From contig JBBFLK010000005.1 in NCBI GenBank assembly GCA_037479115.1, positions 1 through 64,000 on the forward strand: a stretch of 64,000 nucleotides of DNA, given 5' to 3'. This stretch comes from Anaerohalosphaeraceae bacterium (lineage in GTDB: Bacteria > Planctomycetota > Phycisphaerae > Sedimentisphaerales > Anaerohalosphaeraceae). Positions 21,814 through 30,149 of the stretch are shown here, in pieces (positions within the stretch are counted from its first letter, which is position 1; each line of letters begins with the position of its first letter). The position numbers and the translations under genes are program-made. The notes below the pieces were generated by a model. That model was given only the letters and a program-made list of their open reading frames with translations. It was not told where the DNA came from and made no database searches.

Positions 21814-22125
21814 TTCGTTCTCCTTTCCAGATTAAAGATATATTTTGTATTGATGTTCGTGTCTTTTTGAAATCGCGTCTAATAAGAACCATCGGCCCAT
21901 TTAAGGGTCATCTAAATACTTCTATCCGCTAAAACCCCTTTTTTACCTAAAATCACAGTTTTTTCGGAAAAAGATAAAAAACAGAAAGGACAAAAACCAT
22001 ATTCCCTTTTTTGACAGACAGTTATAGTTTTTTTGTCAGTCCCTCCAAAAAAAGTCCTTGAAAAATACCTTCGGATGTGTATTCTATGTCCATAAATGTC
22101 TAATGCTTTAGATTTTTGAGGAAAT
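21814..22125. other. Divergent intergenic region, 312 bp
   Basis: An AT-rich spacer between the LamG gene (minus) and the HTH-EIIA gene (plus). Apart from the plus-strand promoter at 22058-22085 it holds several A/T runs (for example 21955-22030) but no convincing open frame, hairpin terminator or riboswitch. Confidence 0.6.
22058..22085 (+). promoter_or_regulatory. Sigma-70 type promoter for the Ehr operon
   Basis: TTGAAA (22058-22063), a 16-bp spacer, then TGTG directly before TATTCT (22080-22085), an extended -10 like arrangement. The predicted start is near 22092, with a leader of about 34 nt and GAGGAAA ahead of the ATG at 22126. Confidence 0.5.
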
Positions 22126-22842
22126 ATGCAGCTCAGTGTCAAAGATGTTGCAAATTTACTGAAAGTAAACGAAAAAACCGTATATCGTTGGCTTTCTGAG
22201 GGAAAACTGCCTGCATACAAAATAGGCAGTCAATACCGATTTAACAGGTCAGAGCTTCTCGAATGGGTTACCTCACGACAGATGAATTTTTCGCCGGAAT
22301 TGTTTCAGGACACAGAAAGCCGGGATAAAGCAGATATTTCACTTGAGTCTGCCCTACAAAGAGGCGGGATTTATTATCGAATTGACGGCTCAACAAAAGA
22401 AGCTGTTCTGCGAAATGTTATCAATTTGATGAGATTGCCGGAGTCAGTAGACCGAGAATATCTTCTTCAGATGATTCTTGCAAGGGAAGCCATGGCTTCG
22501 ACAGCCATAGGCGATGGAATTGCGATACCACATGTCCGCAATCCAATTGTCCTGCATATTGATGAGCCGATTGTCTCCCTTTGTTTTCTCGAAACACCCG
22601 TTGATTTTCATGCATTAGACGGCAAACCCGTCTTTTGCCTGTTTACTCTTGTCAGTCCGACCGTCAAATGCCACCTCTCTCTCCTGTCTCGGCTGGCCTA
22701 TGTCCTTCGGGACCGAGACTTTAAGACCGTCCTGGCTAATCAAGCCACCCGGGAACGCATCTATACGGAAATCGCTCGGATTGAATCGGGCCTGATGCAG
22801 CATTCTGATTCTCAAACCCAGACAGAAGGAAAAGCCGAATGA
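22126..22842 (+). CDS. HTH (excisionase-type) and PTS EIIA-2 fusion regulator
   Basis: A 238-aa cytosolic protein. Residues 1-50 are an excisionase/MerR-type helix-turn-helix (LSVKDVANLLKVNEKTVYRW...YKIGSQYRFNRSELLEW). Residues about 75-225 form a PTS EIIA type 2 (PtsN-like) domain with the phosphorylation site His136 in GDGIAIPHVRN. A PtsN-like domain fused to DNA binding suggests transcription control by phosphate from EI/HPr-type proteins. Its last 4 nt (ATGA) overlap the hyfB-like start, so it is translated with the Ehr complex and is a strong candidate regulator of it. This coupling is position-based inference. Confidence 0.88.
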   Translation: MQLSVKDVANLLKVNEKTVYRWLSEGKLPAYKIGSQYRFNRSELLEWVTSRQMNFSPELFQDTESRDKADISLESALQRGGIYYRIDGSTKEAVLRNVINLMRLPESVDREYLLQMILAREAMASTAIGDGIAIPHVRNPIVLHIDEPIVSLCFLETPVDFHALDGKPVFCLFTLVSPTVKCHLSLLSRLAYVLRDRDFKTVLANQATRERIYTEIARIESGLMQHSDSQTQTEGKAE

Positions 22843-24818
22843 GCTTTTTTATCGTCGGTGCAGCTGTCATTTTTCTGAGCGGTGTATCCTCCCTTTTCTT
22901 CGGTCGAAAAGGGGATTGGGCTTCACGTGCGGGGGCTTGGGGAACCGTAATCGGCTCCGCCATTGCATTCATTGCCCCGCTGCAAGTCCTTTGGGGAGGG
23001 GCTGTTCTGTCTCTTCGAACAGAATGGTCCATTCCTTTTGGGGCTTTTTTTATTCAGATTGACCCGCTTTCCGCATTCTTTCTGCTGCCGATTCTGGGAC
23101 TGTGTGCTTTGTCGGCTGTGTACGGCATAGAATACCTCAGGGCCTATCAATCCCAGCGGAATCTCGGACCGGTCTGGTTTTTTTACAACCTTCTTCTGGT
23201 ATCCATGCTGCTGGTGGTTACGGCCCGAAACAGTCTGCTCTTCCTGATTGCCTGGGAAATCATGACGCTGGCCTCCTTCTTTCTGGTTACCTTTGAACAC
23301 CACAGGCCGGCGGTTCGCCAGGCGGGTTTTCTTTATCTGCTTGCAGCCCATATCGGAACGGCTTTTCTGATTGTCTTTTTTGTGCTGCTGGGCAGCTGGG
23401 CGGGATCTGCCGACTTTGCTGCTGTCCCCCAAATCCCTCCGGCGGAAGCCAATCTTCTGTTTGTTCTGGCCGTGATTGGATTCGGCATCAAAGCGGGCTT
23501 TATGCCGCTTCATATCTGGCTGCCTCATGCTCATCCGGCTGCTCCCAGCCACGTCTCCGCTGTGATGAGCGGTGTGATGATTAAAACAGGCATTTACGGG
23601 CTGATCCGAACCCTTTGTCTGCTGGAAACCCCGCCCGCCTGGTGGGGCTGGACGCTGATTATCCTTGGAGCGGTTTCCGGTCTTTTGGGAGCCCTCTTTG
23701 CATCGGTTCAACAGGACCTCAAACGGCTGCTGGCCTATTGCAGTGTAGAAAACATCGGCATCATCGCACTGGGGCTCGGAACAGGTCTTTTGGGCATCCA
23801 TCACCACTCTGCCGTCCTGGCCGTGCTGGGATTGGCCGGAGGGCTGCTCCATGTGCTGAACCATGCCGTTTTTAAAGGCCTGCTTTTCCTCAGTGCCGGT
23901 TCCGTCCTTCACAGCACCGGAACGGGACAAATCGACCGGCTCGGAGGCCTGTTCAAGCAGATGCCCTGGACGGCCGCTGCCTTTCTTATCGGAGCCGTTG
24001 CAGTTCCGGGCATTCCGCCTCTAAACGGGTTTTTCAGTGAATTTCTGATTTATCTGGGCTTCTTCAAAAATGGAATGAACAGCGGGCTGGAAACCGTGAT
24101 TGCCGTCCTGCTGACTGTCGGAGGGCTGGCCCTGATCGGCGGTCTGGCTCTGGCGGCCTTCACCAAGGCATTCGGCATTATTTTTTTAGGCAGCCCGCGA
24201 AGTGCCGCTGCGCAGCACGGACACGAAGCCGGTCCGCTGATGAGGGCTTCATTCCTCATTCTGGCCGTGCTGTGTCTGCTGCTGGGGCTCTTTTCTCCCC
24301 GCTTGATTTTCGTTCTGCGGCCGATTCTTCTCTCTGTCACAGGGATGACCGAGGAATCGGTCCAAATCGAACTGGTTCAGGCCTCGTCCGTCTTGTCCCA
24401 AATTGTGAAAGCCGCCGTTCTTTTCGGCGTTTTGGCAGGCGGCCTGCTCCTGATGCGAATCCGTCTGCTGCTCGGACGCCGCGTGGACAGCACTGTGACC
24501 TGGGACTGCGGCTACGCCCGGCCGGATTCAAGAATGCAGTACACGGGGACTTCCTTCACGCAGTTTTTGGCCGATTTGTTCGGCTGGCTGCTGCCGACCT
24601 GCAAAAACATCACACCTCCGGCGGGATTCTTCCCGAACAGCGGACAATACAGGGAAGAAACAGATGACAGCAGTGAAAAGTACCTCTTCCGGCCGGCCGC
24701 CAGGCAGATTGTCCGTCTGTCGTCCAAACTCCAGTGGCTCCAGCACGGACGGCTTCAGGTTTATATCCTGTATATTGCGTTGGCTCTTTGGATTCTTCTG
24801 ATATGGAAACTGATGTAG
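22839..24818 (+). CDS. hyfB: HyfB-like proton-pumping antiporter subunit of an Ehr complex
   Basis: A 659-aa integral membrane protein of the NuoL/MrpA-antiporter family. The core antiporter region has the conserved lysine/histidine segments KAGFMPLHIWLPHAHPAAPSHVSAVMSG and LKRLLAYCSVENIGII, NHAVFKGLLFLSAGSV and GIPPLNGFFSEFLIY. The C-terminal extension with WDCGYARPDSRMQYTGTSF is typical of HyfB/hydrogenase-4 component B. It is predicted to translocate protons or sodium. The length agrees with HyfB (about 670). It overlaps the regulator upstream by 4 nt and is 1 nt from the next gene. Confidence 0.93.
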   Translation: MSFFIVGAAVIFLSGVSSLFFGRKGDWASRAGAWGTVIGSAIAFIAPLQVLWGGAVLSLRTEWSIPFGAFFIQIDPLSAFFLLPILGLCALSAVYGIEYLRAYQSQRNLGPVWFFYNLLLVSMLLVVTARNSLLFLIAWEIMTLASFFLVTFEHHRPAVRQAGFLYLLAAHIGTAFLIVFFVLLGSWAGSADFAAVPQIPPAEANLLFVLAVIGFGIKAGFMPLHIWLPHAHPAAPSHVSAVMSGVMIKTGIYGLIRTLCLLETPPAWWGWTLIILGAVSGLLGALFASVQQDLKRLLAYCSVENIGIIALGLGTGLLGIHHHSAVLAVLGLAGGLLHVLNHAVFKGLLFLSAGSVLHSTGTGQIDRLGGLFKQMPWTAAAFLIGAVAVPGIPPLNGFFSEFLIYLGFFKNGMNSGLETVIAVLLTVGGLALIGGLALAAFTKAFGIIFLGSPRSAAAQHGHEAGPLMRASFLILAVLCLLLGLFSPRLIFVLRPILLSVTGMTEESVQIELVQASSVLSQIVKAAVLFGVLAGGLLLMRIRLLLGRRVDSTVTWDCGYARPDSRMQYTGTSFTQFLADLFGWLLPTCKNITPPAGFFPNSGQYREETDDSSEKYLFRPAARQIVRLSSKLQWLQHGRLQVYILYIALALWILLIWKLM

Positions 24819-24819
24819 C

Positions 24820-25743
24820 ATGCTGATTTTGGGAAAACTCATCAATCTGCTGCTGTGTTTGGCCGGCGCCCCGCTTTTGGGAGGAATCATCAATCGGACC
24901 AAAGCTTTCTTTGCGGGCAGAAAGGGCCCCTCTGTACTTCAGCCGTATTATGATTTGTTCAAGCTGTTCCGGAAGGGGGTCGTGTACAGCCAAACCACCA
25001 CCGGGATTTTTCGAGCAGGCCCCGTTGTCGGTCTGGCTGCTGCGGCAGCTGCCGCCCTGCTGATGCCTCTGGGAGGGCTGCCCGCTGCGCTGTCTTTTGA
25101 AGGTGATTTGATTGTCTTTGTTTATCTGTTTGCTCTCCTGCGGTTCTTTCTGGTGGTCAGTGCACTGGACACCGGGTCGAGTTTTGAGGGAATGGGAGCC
25201 GCCCGTGAAGTCACCTTTTCCGCTTTGGCCGAACCGGCCTTTCTGATTGGACTGGCGGCGGTCGCCAAATACACAGGATATACTTCTCTTTCCCAGATCT
25301 TTTCTTCCCTGGATTTCACAGACTGGCCGGCGGCAGGTCCTACCCTCGTGCTGGTCGGGATTTCCACAGGGATTGTTTTTCTGTCTGAAAACTGCCGAAT
25401 CCCGGTCGATGACCCCAATACGCATCTGGAACTGACCATGATTCATGAAGTCATGGTGCTGGACCACAGCGGACCGGATTTCGGAATGATTCTGTACACC
25501 GCCGCCCTGAAACTGTGGCTTCTGGGAGCGGTTCTGGCGGGCATTCTGGTTCCGGTTCACACCGGAAATCTGTGGCTGGATACGACGGCTGCCCTGCTGT
25601 TTCTGGGCTTGCTGGCCGTTCTGGTCGGCGTGATAGAATCCTCCATGGCTCGTCTTCGCCTGCTCCATGTTCCCTCGCTCCTGATCGGGGCCGCCGCCCT
25701 ATCCATCGTCGCCCTGATGCTCGTTTGCGGAGGTCTGCTATGA
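24820..25743 (+). CDS. hyfC: HyfC-like NuoH-family membrane subunit
   Basis: A 307-aa membrane protein of the NuoH/HycD/HyfC family, which links the peripheral arm to the pump subunits. Signature motifs are GRKGPSVLQPYYDLFKL near residue 28, GMGAAREVTFSALAEP near 125 and ENCRIPVDDPNTHLELTMIH near 190. The acidic residues of the quinone-site-like chamber (the Glu and Asp residues in these motifs) are present. About eight membrane helices are expected. Its stop overlaps the start of the next gene (ATGA). Confidence 0.94.
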   Translation: MLILGKLINLLLCLAGAPLLGGIINRTKAFFAGRKGPSVLQPYYDLFKLFRKGVVYSQTTTGIFRAGPVVGLAAAAAAALLMPLGGLPAALSFEGDLIVFVYLFALLRFFLVVSALDTGSSFEGMGAAREVTFSALAEPAFLIGLAAVAKYTGYTSLSQIFSSLDFTDWPAAGPTLVLVGISTGIVFLSENCRIPVDDPNTHLELTMIHEVMVLDHSGPDFGMILYTAALKLWLLGAVLAGILVPVHTGNLWLDTTAALLFLGLLAVLVGVIESSMARLRLLHVPSLLIGAAALSIVALMLVCGGLL

Positions 25744-26384
25744 ATTCAGCCGTTGACCTGATTCTGATTTTTTTGATTCTTTCCAATTTGGCCCTGCTGG
25801 GATTGAGCCGGCTGGGTGCCTGTATTCGAGTGGCCGCCCTTCAGGGGGTTGCCCTCGGACTGCTGCCGCTCTTTCTGGTTGAATCAGGGCCCGCCGCTCA
25901 TCAGCTGTTTTTCTCCGCCCTTCTGATTGGTCTGAAAGGCATCGTTTTCCCCTGGCTTCTGACGATTGTCCTTCGGGAAATTCAGGTTCAGCGGGAAATT
26001 GAGCCGTTTATCGGATACGGCAGTTCGCTGGCATTCGGCACCGTCTTTTTAATTGTTTCGTTATGGCTGGGCAGCCGCCTTCCGCTGCCGATCTCGATGC
26101 AGTCCGGTCTGATTGTTCCTTCGGCCTTTTTTACCATTATGTCCGGATTCTTTCTGATTATCGCCCGCAAAAAAGCCCTCACCCAGGTGCTCGGTTATCT
26201 GGTTCTGGAAAACGGAATTTACGCCTTCGGAGCGGCCCTGTCGGAAAATCAGCCGGTTCTGATTGAATTGGGAATCCTGCTGGATTTATTTGCGGCGGCC
26301 TTTGTGATGGGCATTGCCGTCTTTCATATCAACCGGGAATTTGAACACATTGACACGGATAAATTATCCGGCCTGAGGACCTGA
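25740..26384 (+). CDS. hyfE: HyfE-like membrane subunit
   Basis: A 214-aa protein with about six membrane helices, close to the length of E. coli HyfE (216). It begins at ATG 25740, overlapping the hyfC-like stop by 4 nt; a longer open frame upstream only covers hyfC sequence. Motifs: LLIGLKGIVFPWLLTIVLRE, GYLVLENGIYAFG and LGILLDLFAAAFVMGIAVFHI. HyfE combines features of NuoK in its C-terminal part and is thought to belong to the membrane arm. Confidence 0.9.
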   Translation: MNSAVDLILIFLILSNLALLGLSRLGACIRVAALQGVALGLLPLFLVESGPAAHQLFFSALLIGLKGIVFPWLLTIVLREIQVQREIEPFIGYGSSLAFGTVFLIVSLWLGSRLPLPISMQSGLIVPSAFFTIMSGFFLIIARKKALTQVLGYLVLENGIYAFGAALSENQPVLIELGILLDLFAAAFVMGIAVFHINREFEHIDTDKLSGLRT

Positions 26385-26388
26385 ACGT

Positions 26389-27864
26389 ATGATTTATGCG
26401 TTGATTGTCATCCCTGCCGCAGCGGCGATTTTGTCGCTGATGATTCAAAACGACAGGATACGACGCGGCCTTTTAGTCGGGGCCGCCGCCGCCCATACGC
26501 TGCTGGTGCTGGCGGCCTGGCATACGGGGGCCGCCCCTCGGATCAACGGATGGCTCGTGCTGGACCAGCCCGCTCTTTTGTTCCTGACCATTACGAGCAT
26601 TCTGTTCTCCGCCTGTTCAGTCTATGCCGCCGGCTACCTGGCCGGAGAATCCGGCCGAACCATACGGGATTTCGAAGAGGGGCTGTTTTTCCGCAACGCT
26701 CCGGAGGCCGTCTTTTGTGCCTGTCTTCTTGCATTCCTGGCCACCATGACGCTCACAGCGCTCAGCCAGCACCTGGCTTTGCTGTGGGTAGCCATGGAAG
26801 CCACCACGCTGGCCAGCGCCCCGCTGATTTATTTCCATCGGCACCACCGGTCGCTGGAGGCCGCCTGGAAATATCTTTTGATTTGTTCCGTCGGCATCGC
26901 TTTGGCCCTGCTGGGAACCTTCTTTATCGGCATCGCCGTTTCCCATACCTCCGTGGAAGACAAATCGCTCGTCCTGAGCAATCTGATTCAGCAGGGAAAC
27001 CGGCTGAACCTGACCTGGCTGAAAGCCGCGATGCTGCTGACCCTGGTGGGGTACGGAACGAAAATGGGCCTGGCTCCTCTGCATACCTGGCTGCCGGACG
27101 CTCACAGCGAATCGCCCTCGGTGATTTCCGCCCTGCTTTCCGGGGCTTTGCTCAATTGTGCTTTTTTGGGGATTTTGCGGATTGTACAAGTCTGCCGGGC
27201 GGCTGGGTTAGAAGATTTTTATCAGCCCCTGCTGATTTTGTTCGGCCTGCTTTCGATGGGCTGGGCCGCCGTGTTTATCCTTGGGCAGGCGGATTTCAAA
27301 CGAATGCTGGCCTATTCGAGTGTCGAACATGTCGGGATTCTGGCATTGGGCATCGGAATCGGAGCCGGAGCCGTCTTTGGTTCGATGCTTCACGCCGTCA
27401 ACCACTCGCTCACCAAAGCCATGCTGTTTCTGGCCGCCGGCAACATCCTCGGCGCCTTCAAAACCAAAACCATTTCGCAGGTCAGCGGGGTTCTGGAGCG
27501 GCTGCCTTTGACGGGAATCCTCTGGCTTGCCGGCTTTCTGGCAATTACCGGCATGCCTCCCTTCGGCCTTTTCCTGAGCGAGTTTGCCATCGTCAAAGCC
27601 ATGATTGAACAGGGCCGGTTCGGTGCCGCAGCGGCCTTTCTGGGGGTGCTGACTCTGATTTTTGCCGGCATGGCTTCGGCATTTCTGAAAATGGCTCAGG
27701 GACCTGCTCCTCAGGGGAAGGCGGAAACGCCTCATCCGGAGTCGTTTACGCATGTGCTGCCGCCGCTGGCCTTAGGCGTTTTGACGCTGCTGCTTGGAGT
27801 GTATGTGCCCCCTGTCGTAAGCCGACTGCTCCATGAGGCGGCCGCTGCTTTTGGAGGATTTTGA
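26389..27864 (+). CDS. hyfF: HyfF-like antiporter subunit
   Basis: A 491-aa antiporter-type membrane protein (NuoM/N, HyfF group). Conserved segments: KMGLAPLHTWLPDAHSESPSVISALLSG, FKRMLAYSSVEHVGILALG, MLHAVNHSLTKAMLFLAAGNI and GMPPFGLFLSEFAI. The lysine in TKMGLAPLH and the histidine in NHSLTKA are those used in proton paths. With the HyfB-like protein it gives two pump modules. The start lies 4 nt after the hyfE-like stop, and its own stop overlaps the frame of the next gene. Confidence 0.93.
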   Translation: MIYALIVIPAAAAILSLMIQNDRIRRGLLVGAAAAHTLLVLAAWHTGAAPRINGWLVLDQPALLFLTITSILFSACSVYAAGYLAGESGRTIRDFEEGLFFRNAPEAVFCACLLAFLATMTLTALSQHLALLWVAMEATTLASAPLIYFHRHHRSLEAAWKYLLICSVGIALALLGTFFIGIAVSHTSVEDKSLVLSNLIQQGNRLNLTWLKAAMLLTLVGYGTKMGLAPLHTWLPDAHSESPSVISALLSGALLNCAFLGILRIVQVCRAAGLEDFYQPLLILFGLLSMGWAAVFILGQADFKRMLAYSSVEHVGILALGIGIGAGAVFGSMLHAVNHSLTKAMLFLAAGNILGAFKTKTISQVSGVLERLPLTGILWLAGFLAITGMPPFGLFLSEFAIVKAMIEQGRFGAAAAFLGVLTLIFAGMASAFLKMAQGPAPQGKAETPHPESFTHVLPPLALGVLTLLLGVYVPPVVSRLLHEAAAAFGGF

Positions 27865-27866
27865 GC

Positions 27867-29381
27867 ATGGCTGCGCTGACTTATCCATGGTTTCACAATA
27901 ATCAGCCGCTGGAAGCCGCACAGATACCGGTAGTCTCTCTGGAGGAATTCACCAACGCCGTGCGAAACGCCGCGGCGGCCGGAATGCGGATTGCTTCTTT
28001 TTTTGCCGCCGCTTCCGGGCCTCATTTGGTTTGCCTGTACGCCGTGATAGCCGACGAAAACATCGGACGATTGTCCGTTCTGTCCGCTGCAGCACAGGAC
28101 AGCTATCCGTCGCTGACCCCGGACTGCCCGCAGGTGCACCTCTTTGAACGGGAAATCGCCGAACAATGGGGCATCCTTCCTCAAGGGCATCCATGGCTCA
28201 AACCCGTCCGTTTCCATCCCTGCTGCCGAAGCGGAAAGGAGATATGGAAACAGCAGAACATCCTGCCTTCGGTTATGAACTTTTACCGGCTCGAAGGAGA
28301 ACAGATTCACGAGGTGGCCGTCGGTCCGGTTCACGCCGGAATCATTGAGCCGGGGCATTTTCGGTTTCAATGCCTGGGGGAACAGGTTTTCCATCTGGAG
28401 ATATCGCTGGGGTATCAGCACCGCGGCATCGAACGCCGTCTTATCGGCGGCCCGACTCCCCGCACCTATGCCCTGATTCAGACGGCCGCCGGGGATACCA
28501 CCATCGGCCATACCACGGCGTACTGTCAGCTGCTTGAATCGACGGCGGATATCCAGGCGCCTCCGCGTGCCCAGGCCATCCGCGGGATTGCTCTGGAACT
28601 GGAACGGCTGGCCAATCACACCGGCGACCTCGGGGCGCTGGCCAATGATGTCGGCTATCTGCCGACCGCCTCGTTCTGCGGACGCATCCGCGGCGATTTT
28701 CTGAATCTGACCGCTCTGCTGTGCGGCAATCGATTTGGCCGAAATCTCGTCTGTCCGGGCGGTGTGCAGTTTGATTTAACCGCCGAGAAGGCAGACCAGA
28801 TGCGCCGCCGTCTTCACGAATTGAAAAAAGACCTCACGGTCGCCGTGGAACTGCTGTGGAACACCCCATCGGTTCTGGCCCGATTTGAAGAAACAGGCAA
28901 AATCGATGAACAAACCTGCCGGCAGCTGGGGCTGGTCGGCGTGGCGGCAAGGGCCTGCGGCCTTGAAACGGATGTGCGGTTCCGCTTCCCCGCCGGCGTT
29001 TATCAATTTGCCCAGGTCCCCGTATCCACCTGGCATACCGGTGATGTCTTCGCCCGGGCCTATGTTCGCTGGCTTGAGATTCAGCGGTCGCTGGCCTTTC
29101 TGCTGGAACTGCTGGACAATTGTCCCGGCGGTCCCATTCGGGCCGATTGGGACGGCCCCGCCGCCAACCGCTTCTGTGTGAGTCTGACGGAAGGGTGGCG
29201 GGGAGAAATTTGCCATGCCGCCGCGACAGACGCCCAGGGACGCCTGGCCTTTTACAAAATCACAGACCCGTCTTTCCATAACTGGACGGGGCTGGCGATG
29301 GCCCTTCGCGGCCAGCAGATTTCCGATTTTCCGCTGTGCAACAAAAGTTTCAACCTGTCCTACTGCGGACATGACTTATAA
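27867..29381 (+). CDS. Ehr complex large subunit (NuoC-NuoD-like, no Ni-Fe ligands)
   Basis: A 504-aa cytoplasmic subunit. The ATG at 27867 follows GGAGG by 9 nt; a TTG at 27861 is an alternative. Residues about 20-125 are NuoC-like (VHLFEREIAEQWGI). The rest is the NuoD/HyfG-like large-subunit fold (GYQHRGIERRL, ALELERLANHTGDL, GGVQFDL, TGDVFARAYVRWLEI). In true group 4 hydrogenases, four cysteines bind Ni-Fe, in a CxxC after the HRGIE segment and a DPCxxC at the C-terminus. Here the first site reads TAAGDTTIGH (205-215) and the tail reads FNLSYCGHDL, so both are lost. This is the hallmark of Ehr complexes described in Geobacter and other bacteria; the substrate is unknown. Confidence 0.92.
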   Translation: MAALTYPWFHNNQPLEAAQIPVVSLEEFTNAVRNAAAAGMRIASFFAAASGPHLVCLYAVIADENIGRLSVLSAAAQDSYPSLTPDCPQVHLFEREIAEQWGILPQGHPWLKPVRFHPCCRSGKEIWKQQNILPSVMNFYRLEGEQIHEVAVGPVHAGIIEPGHFRFQCLGEQVFHLEISLGYQHRGIERRLIGGPTPRTYALIQTAAGDTTIGHTTAYCQLLESTADIQAPPRAQAIRGIALELERLANHTGDLGALANDVGYLPTASFCGRIRGDFLNLTALLCGNRFGRNLVCPGGVQFDLTAEKADQMRRRLHELKKDLTVAVELLWNTPSVLARFEETGKIDEQTCRQLGLVGVAARACGLETDVRFRFPAGVYQFAQVPVSTWHTGDVFARAYVRWLEIQRSLAFLLELLDNCPGGPIRADWDGPAANRFCVSLTEGWRGEICHAAATDAQGRLAFYKITDPSFHNWTGLAMALRGQQISDFPLCNKSFNLSYCGHDL

Positions 29382-29393
29382 GAGGATAAACGG

Positions 29394-30149
29394 ATGATTC
29401 GTGCACTTCTGGCCCGCATTCAGCAGAAACACCGAACCGTCGGGTTCCCGAAAACCGAACCGACCCTGCCGCCGGATTTTCTCGGTCGTCCGGAGCTTTT
29501 CCCTCAGCGATGTTCCGCCGACTGCCGGCGCTGTATTGAGGTCTGCCCCACCAGTGCCGTTCAGAAAAAGGACGCTGTAACGCTGGACATGGGCCGATGC
29601 CTCTTCTGCGGACAATGTGCCCGGGAATGTCCTTCCGGAGCAATACGGTTCTCGCGGGATTATCGGCTGGCGGCTTCGGCGAAAGCTGACCTGCTTTTAA
29701 AGGGAGAAGAATACAAACGAGCCGCAACATTGGGAAAAGAGCTGAAACGGCTCTTCGGCCGCTCCCTGAAACTCCGGCAGGTTTCCGCAGGCGGCTGCAA
29801 CGCCTGCGAGGCCGACACAAACGTGCTGACAACCGTCGTTTTCGACTTGAGCCGCTTCGGCATTCAGTTTGTGGCCTCGCCGCGGCATGCAGACGGCCTG
29901 CTGATAACAGGCCCGGTGCCCGAAAATATGAAGCTGGCCCTCGAGAAAACCTACCAGGCCGTCCCAGCTCCAAAACTTGTGATTGCCGTCGGCTCCTGCG
30001 CGATTTCCGGCGGTCCCTTTGCCGGACATCCCGAAGTGCATAACGGTGCTGACGGGATTGTCCCCGTGGATTTGTATATCCCCGGCTGCCCCCCTCATCC
30101 GATTACGATTCTGGACGGTCTGCTTCGGCTGCTGGGCCGGATTGATTAA
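29394..30149 (+). CDS. Ehr electron-transfer subunit: ferredoxin-NuoB fusion
   Basis: A 251-aa iron-sulfur protein combining HyfH and HyfI functions. The N-terminal ferredoxin domain has two 4Fe-4S motifs: C40-x3-C44-x2-C47-x3-C51 and C69-x2-C72-x2-C75-x3-C79. The NuoB/small-subunit domain keeps all ligands of the proximal cluster: C135 and C138 (GGCNACEAD), C202 (GSCAISGG) and C232 (PGCPPHP). So the electron path is intact although the large subunit has no Ni-Fe site. It ends the operon. Its TAA stop is interleaved with the stop of the convergent GH2 gene (TTAA at 30146-30149). Confidence 0.93.
   Translation: MIRALLARIQQKHRTVGFPKTEPTLPPDFLGRPELFPQRCSADCRRCIEVCPTSAVQKKDAVTLDMGRCLFCGQCARECPSGAIRFSRDYRLAASAKADLLLKGEEYKRAATLGKELKRLFGRSLKLRQVSAGGCNACEADTNVLTTVVFDLSRFGIQFVASPRHADGLLITGPVPENMKLALEKTYQAVPAPKLVIAVGSCAISGGPFAGHPEVHNGADGIVPVDLYIPGCPPHPITILDGLLRLLGRID

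Follow-up and report, generated by a model that had tools for sequence, protein, structure and literature searches.

Energy-converting hydrogenase-related (Ehr) complexes occur in many bacteria, including Geobacter, Acidobacteriota, planctomycetes, rhizobia, and actinobacteria, and their reaction has been unknown since they were named. The Geobacter complex consists of EhrA–D, EhrL, and EhrS encoded by GSU0739–0745 (for this and other Ehr, see Coppi 2005 and Marreiros 2013, cited in PMC4378227). The Ehr described in Sulfobacillus has a six-gene neighborhood, no Ni-Fe ligands, and no known function (PMC4378227). Absent ligands and an unknown function are likewise reported for Ehr in Margulisbacteria (PMC6349859), comammox Nitrospira (PMC10284858), the Candidate Phyla Radiation (PMC7304191), and ammonia-oxidizing archaea (PMC10432482). 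Geobacter sulfurreducens has more of the entire complex when on formate than under hydrogen-containing conditions (PMC7894505). Here, we analyze the Ehr operon at positions 22126–30149 (+ strand) of a 64,000-nucleotide stretch of DNA from an Anaerohalosphaeraceae bacterium (contig JBBFLK010000005.1; the window). The window complex is a Geobacter-type Ehr, and the Ni-Fe-less Ehr is a kind already known. New here are the conserved EIIA gene upstream of the operon, the residue profile of the pocket, and the losses of the proximal cluster in relatives.

Large subunit and the former Ni-Fe pocket

The sequence-only reading that preceded this analysis held that the operon encodes an Ehr complex without Ni-Fe ligands. 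It quoted the motifs TAAGDTTIGH and FNLSYCGHDL and named four cysteines at the ligand positions as the contrary outcome. Both motifs are present, at residues 206–215 and 495–504 of EhrL (27867–29381, + strand; 504 residues), a HycE-like NuoC-NuoD fusion that has no C-terminal tail and most likely starts at the ATG at 27867. Alignment with E. coli HycE and HyfG bears the claim out: the HycE Ni-Fe cysteines C241, C244, C531, and C534 fall on A208, T211, S498, and G501. Loop L1 (28488–28511, + strand) is A208-G-D210-T211-T-I-G-H215 in place of C-G-x-C-x-x-x-H, and loop L4 (29358–29378, + strand) is S498-Y-C500-G501-H-D503-L504 in place of C-x-x-C-x-D/H-R. Among 101 relatives from more than 10 phyla, the first ligand position is mostly Ala or Ser (Cys in four), the second is Thr, Ala, or Ser, the third is Ser (one Ala), and the fourth is always Gly; none has the full four-cysteine set. 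D210, W444, S498, and G501 are among the residues that characterize the ligand-less lineages. C500 is a conserved cysteine one residue outside the ligand register. It was considered as a universal catalytic residue and rejected because wider ligand-less lineages have Ala or Ser at this position.

The remainder of the pocket was compared with published residues by alignment. E161 (the β1-β2 glutamate), R445 (the canopy arginine), and H251, E404, and R362 of the proton wire are invariant in the 101 relatives and correspond to proton residues named in the structure paper on E. coli formate hydrogenlyase (FHL) (PMC9474812). The canopy aspartate (HycE D529) is N496 in EhrL and Asn in 97 of the 101. 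Where complex I has the His and Tyr of its quinone-headgroup site (Nqo4 H38 and Y87), EhrL has I160 and G209, neither of which varies in the same set. Read in this way, the pocket matches none of hydrogenase, complex I, and MBS by published criteria (PMC7684303), and its conservation argues against the three chemistries that textbooks give for the superfamily. The AlphaFold model of the large subunit has a mean pLDDT of 87.6, with the pocket stretches 154–163 and 500–504 below 50 in the absence of the small subunit. The best Protein Data Bank (PDB) match by both sequence and fold is 7z0s_E (Z 41.3, 27% identity).

Small subunit and membrane arm

EhrS (29394–30149, + strand; 251 residues) is a 2×[4Fe-4S] ferredoxin domain fused to a NuoB-like small subunit, as judged from domain assignments and the cysteine alignment. 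Domain assignment recovers both fusions in the sequence-only reading, NuoC-NuoD and ferredoxin-NuoB; the former is the usual HycE/HyfG arrangement. The Fe-S path was also correctly described as intact, with 12 of 12 cysteines present for the three EhrS clusters. Alignment with HycG and HyfI identifies the proximal-cluster ligands (29796–30089, + strand) as C135 and C138 (C135-N-A-C138), C202, and C232. The CxxC spacing is that of hydrogenases, not the adjacent CC of complex I (N2) or the shortened MBS motif. The window protein retains all 12 Fe-S cysteines, as do 86 of 97 small subunits, which argues that the electron relay is under selection.

The membrane arm is encoded by four genes on the + strand. 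EhrA (22839–24818; 659 residues) is a HyfB/NuoL-like antiporter subunit with E140, K218, K249, and E401, and EhrD (26389–27864; 491 residues) is a HyfF/NuoN-M-like antiporter subunit with E137, K225, and E398. EhrB (24820–25743; 307 residues) is a HycD/HyfC/NuoH-like membrane anchor with the E-channel residues E130, E138, E190, E210, and R108. EhrC (25740–26384; 214 residues) is HyfE-like, and its C-terminal half resembles NuoK. The earlier statement that the membrane subunits are intact agrees with their residues: both antiporter subunits carry the NuoM-type Glu and Lys, and most E-channel residues are present. The NuoM-type residues are nearly invariant among relatives (77–90 sequences), and the K265 position of the HyfF-like subunit is Asn or Ser, as in HyfF itself. 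The five EhrB residues are kept in 85–86 of 86 sequences, and two HycD glutamates are replaced by Asn and His. The number of NuoL-like genes was estimated from the spacing between genes. In 29 of 61 Ehr loci with an upstream EIIA gene, the distance from EIIA to the NuoH-like gene fits two NuoL-like genes; the window has one.

Relatives and origin

The large subunit is 55–67% identical over its full length across Planctomycetota, Verrucomicrobiota, Kiritimatiellota, Omnitrophota, Acidobacteriota, Myxococcota, Geobacteraceae, and others, and identity of this extent in other phyla excludes chance as a concern. The genome belongs to a planctomycete close to Sedimentisphaerales; its nearest public relative is isolate JPMR_maxbin.066, whose large subunit is 93% identical. 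The compact six-subunit set to which the sequence-only reading drew attention is present, but it is common elsewhere (Planctomycetota, other Planctomycetes-Verrucomicrobia-Chlamydiae bacteria, Acidobacteriota, Rhizobium, Rhodococcus, and Variovorax). Two different Ehr operons (L149 and L155) lie a few kb from each other on plasmid 3 of Variovorax sp. PBL-E5; the ferredoxin domain is present in one of them and missing from the other.

Four planctomycete genomes (L027, L029, L030, and L032) have the six-gene set with all four Ni-Fe cysteines (CGVC and CYSC). In a tree rooted outside by HycE, HyfG, and NuoCD, these sequences branch just outside the ligand-less clade (support 100/98). With broader sampling, the four-Cys rows still lie on one side of a branch (Shimodaira-Hasegawa-like approximate likelihood ratio test 99). 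A single loss of the Ni-Fe site would be enough to explain the tree, although the length of several branches calls for caution. The nearest four-Cys relatives share gene order, the fused ferredoxin, and the NuoH loop motif with Ehr, which argues that Ehr derives from an ion-coupled hydrogenase.

Proposed mechanism

Our leading explanation, a tentative one, is that Ehr could be an ion pump of the complex I superfamily that is linked to a redox reaction and fed by ferredoxin. A ferredoxin-fed relay is the simplest reading for the window complex, in which all Fe-S ligands are present. Reduced ferredoxin would pass electrons to the fused 2×[4Fe-4S] domain and from there to the proximal [4Fe-4S] cluster, which, as placed by its ligands, would face the old Ni-Fe pocket. 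Because the proximal cluster has four Cys ligands and no metal site facing it, the acceptor is most plausibly a bound small molecule. It would most likely be organic and reduced by outer-sphere transfer; it would not be H2 and is probably not a quinone. Protonation through E161 and the wire R445/H251/E404/R362 would be relayed to the NuoH-like E-channel and on to the two antiporter-like subunits, whose residues suggest movement of H+ or Na+. Coupling to ion movement is proposed because the wire and the E-channel are retained. The conserved Fe-S cysteines, the near-invariant antiporter residues, the invariant proton residues, and the descent from an ion-coupled hydrogenase speak for this explanation, and two points from outside the operon are counted in favor as well. 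The genome, which is 99.85% complete and includes RnfC, contains no Proton_antipo_M proteins other than the Ehr antiporter subunits, and Ehr is its sole antiporter system of the complex I kind. The second is the higher abundance of the G. sulfurreducens complex on formate (PMC7894505).

Several observations weigh against this explanation. The canopy aspartate is conserved from hydrogenase to complex I but is Asn in EhrL. No conserved acceptor or partner enzyme was found among the clustered neighbors of about 100 Ehr loci. The ferredoxin domain is absent from the Ehr of Rhizobium, Bradyrhizobium, Ciceribacter, Rhodococcus, and Methylocalor, which retain the proximal cluster; these are alphaproteobacterial, actinobacterial, and methylotroph complexes. 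Close relatives have cleanly lost the proximal cluster, whereas their pocket and pump are unaltered. Both kinds of loss would be odd if electron delivery were the point. In L068 (Planctomycetales), the proximal ligands are changed to C135N, C138E, C202E, and C232W, and all eight ferredoxin cysteines are kept. These four are the only deviations in its small subunit at the 75 positions with a conservation of 95% or more. Two further planctomycetes follow: L076 has lost three of the four ligands, together with two conservative changes, and L163 has lost all three that its contig covers. The large-subunit pocket is essentially unaltered in all three.

Two plasmid-borne complexes of isolates from other phyla have also lost the cluster. 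The ligands are Thr, Asp, Glu, and Ser in Allomeiothermus silvanus (pMESIL01), where the ferredoxin domain is broken too, and Asn, Asp, Asp, and Ala in Mycobacterium branderi (pJCM12687), which sits on a long branch and has a drifted pocket. Both keep the antiporter Glu and Lys except at the M. branderi K265 position, which is variable elsewhere too; M. branderi has lost several E-channel residues. The five cluster losses need five changes on the tree, and the planctomycete part is poorly resolved; the safe statement is that the proximal cluster was lost at least three separate times. At least in the close relatives with clean losses, a selected function persists without the last cluster. The small subunits that have lost proximal ligands in otherwise intact operons are L068:11513–12304, L076, L163, L150:10293–11165, and L190:9312–10106. 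Relatives that naturally have no proximal cluster offer variants with which to ask whether Ehr acts as an enzyme at all.

Alternative explanations

The clean cluster losses in close relatives are the reason that a redox-gated or redox-independent translocator is kept as a serious, though less likely, alternative. The Ehr core would then not be an oxidoreductase. What gates ion translocation would be a ligand, protonation, or some chemistry other than redox in the former Ni-Fe pocket, and the ferredoxin domain, where present, would be a redox sensor or brake. Each redox element is lost in some lineage: the Ni-Fe ligands in all 101 main-clade sequences and the proximal cluster or the ferredoxin domain in the lineages above, while the pump residues and the E161/H251/E404/R362 wire persist. 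It is conceivable, and about as likely, that Ehr no longer needs electron delivery, having lost Ni-Fe first and then the proximal cluster or the ferredoxin domain by lineage, with the wire and antiporter arm kept. The 86 of 97 small subunits with all 12 cysteines argue otherwise, since they indicate that the clusters matter in most complexes, the window's included, and the cluster-less forms may be secondary specializations. If the idea were true, Ehr would join the Mrp and Dab systems as another case of complex I parts put to use outside respiration, and a pump that runs without a redox reaction would bear directly on complex I coupling.

It is unlikely that Ehr is a small complex I that reduces menaquinone with ferredoxin electrons. 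The NuoD fold match (Z ~38) fits such a role, homologs of MenA and UbiE are adjacent in the window's genome (G000 contig C19, L139), and Geobacter relatives have menaquinone-pathway genes. Against it stand the invariant replacements of Nqo4 H38 and Y87 and the CxxC of the small subunit where complex I has adjacent CC (PMC7684303, PMC9474812). In addition, 17 of 28 Ehr genomes, the window's included, yielded neither MenD above the cut-off nor MqnA/D; many of them are drafts and several metagenome-assembled, which makes this only moderate evidence against a quinone. MenA and UbiE without MenD or MqnA/D in a near-complete genome may reflect scavenging of quinone precursors or an unrecognized route. 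UbiA alone was rejected as a quinone test because it is too general (positive in 26 of 28 genomes).

It is very unlikely that Ehr works like MBS and uses its proximal cluster to reduce polysulfide or some other sulfur compound. MBS belongs to the same superfamily and also has no quinone residues (PMC7684303), and the large subunit has the conserved cysteines C500 and C169. However, MBS uses one non-Cys iron arising from its shortened motif, whereas EhrS has four cysteines at hydrogenase spacing. MBS has no equivalent of the β1-β2 glutamate E161 (PMC7684303), and C500 is not retained in the wider ligand-less lineages. That Ehr still makes or uses H2 through another metal site is scarcely credible: the hydrogenase-type pocket with E161 and R445 and the increase on formate in Geobacter (PMC7894505) would suit it, but none of the four ligand cysteines is present in the window, where Ala, Thr, Ser, and Gly occupy their places.

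The upstream HTH-EIIA gene and operon context

The operon consists of seven genes in the same direction with intact reading frames. Neighboring genes overlap by 4 nucleotides at 22839 and at 25740 and are otherwise only a few bases apart. The complete six-subunit Ehr set spans 22839–30149. Pfam and NCBIfam assign two Proton_antipo_M proteins, NADHdh, Oxidored_q2, Complex1_30kDa with Complex1_49kDa in one protein, and 4Fe-4S with Oxidored_q6 in one protein. The interval 22126–30149 given for the complex in the sequence-only reading holds for these genes from 22839 on. Its first gene (22126–22842, + strand) is no subunit but a conserved regulatory gene that had been overlooked, a PtsN-like fusion of the helix-turn-helix (HTH) domain HTH_17 and PTS_EIIA_2 with H136 and H183 present.

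An HTH-EIIA gene lies on the same strand no more than 400 nucleotides before the first detected NuoL-like gene in 55 of the 69 loci with at least 1.2 kb of upstream sequence, across 11 named phyla; in several of the remaining 14, it is slightly farther away or inverted. The EIIA active-site histidines are kept in 59 of 60 and 60 of 60 sequences. For comparison, the window's genome has five EIIA domains in 3 Mb, and no EIIA gene was found beside the four-Cys hydrogenases L027, L029, L030, and L032. The regulator of a similar M. tuberculosis locus, Rv0081, is presumably not an EIIA protein. The association with Ehr loci suggests that the HTH-EIIA protein is probably a regulator of the Ehr operon. 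It would probably set expression by the phosphorylation state of the phosphotransferase system, that is, by carbon and energy supply, and so offers a regulatory handle on Ehr. A literature search, with most subscription journals outside its reach, found no paper on an EIIA gene beside Ehr. No sigma-54 promoter was found upstream of the EIIA gene in 59 loci. A weak sigma-70-like promoter, TTGAAA-16-TATTCT (22058–22085, + strand), lies 40 nucleotides 5′ of the first gene; such sites are no more frequent in the region than in shuffled sequence, and it is only suggestive.

The genes flanking the operon on both sides are on the opposite strand and, from their sequences, seem to encode secreted proteins, carbohydrate-active or of the LamG type, that are unrelated to it. 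The window's genome has no NuoD-family gene besides that of Ehr, as is the case in 16 of 28 Ehr genomes examined. The genome has three other [NiFe] hydrogenases with intact ligands. These would explain any hyp maturation genes, which were therefore rejected as evidence on Ehr. A group-1-like hydrogenase large subunit on G000 contig C23 (L001:1303–2907) ends right after DPCIACAVH with no C-terminal extension.

Comparison with known systems

The M. tuberculosis locus rv0082–rv0087 has six genes with the same annotated product types (PMC6901956), which is a likeness of annotation. Complex I (NuoD/NuoB/NuoH) shares its fold and membrane pump with Ehr, which differs in having no quinone-headgroup residues, CxxC rather than CC, and no NuoEFG in the operon. 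Pyrococcus MBS is likewise a Ni-Fe-deficient, ferredoxin-fed relative; its proximal cluster is ligated by three Cys through the shortened motif and its loop glutamate is absent (PMC7684303), whereas Ehr has four Cys and E161. E. coli hydrogenase-3/4 (HycE, HyfG; FHL) provides the best PDB match to EhrL and differs in having Ni-Fe and a separate HycF/HyfH ferredoxin; FHL also has a formate dehydrogenase. Neither a formate dehydrogenase nor a HycB partner is conserved among the neighbors of some 100 Ehr loci (neighborhoods only; no genome-wide search was made). Group 4 [NiFe] hydrogenases in general share the equivalents of E161 and R445 with Ehr, but not the four Cys ligands and the canopy Asp.

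The planctomycete group 4 hydrogenases L027, L029, L030, and L032 have the same gene order, fused ferredoxin-NuoB, NuoH loop THLELTMIHE, and absence of a cleavable C-terminal tail; their large subunit ends at CTDL, and it seems that no HycI-type C-terminal cut would be needed. They differ in keeping CGVC and CYSC, in their identity of at most about 36%, and in the EIIA gene, which was not found alongside. Geobacter Ehr has the same subunits as the window, no Ni-Fe cysteines, and a large subunit with 57–61% full-length identity (Geobacter/Geomonas relatives L067, L074, L117, and L120). The window has one NuoL-like gene, whereas about half of loci have two (as EhrA-1 and EhrA-2). The EIIA gene is upstream in most Geobacteraceae loci assessed, as it is in the window.

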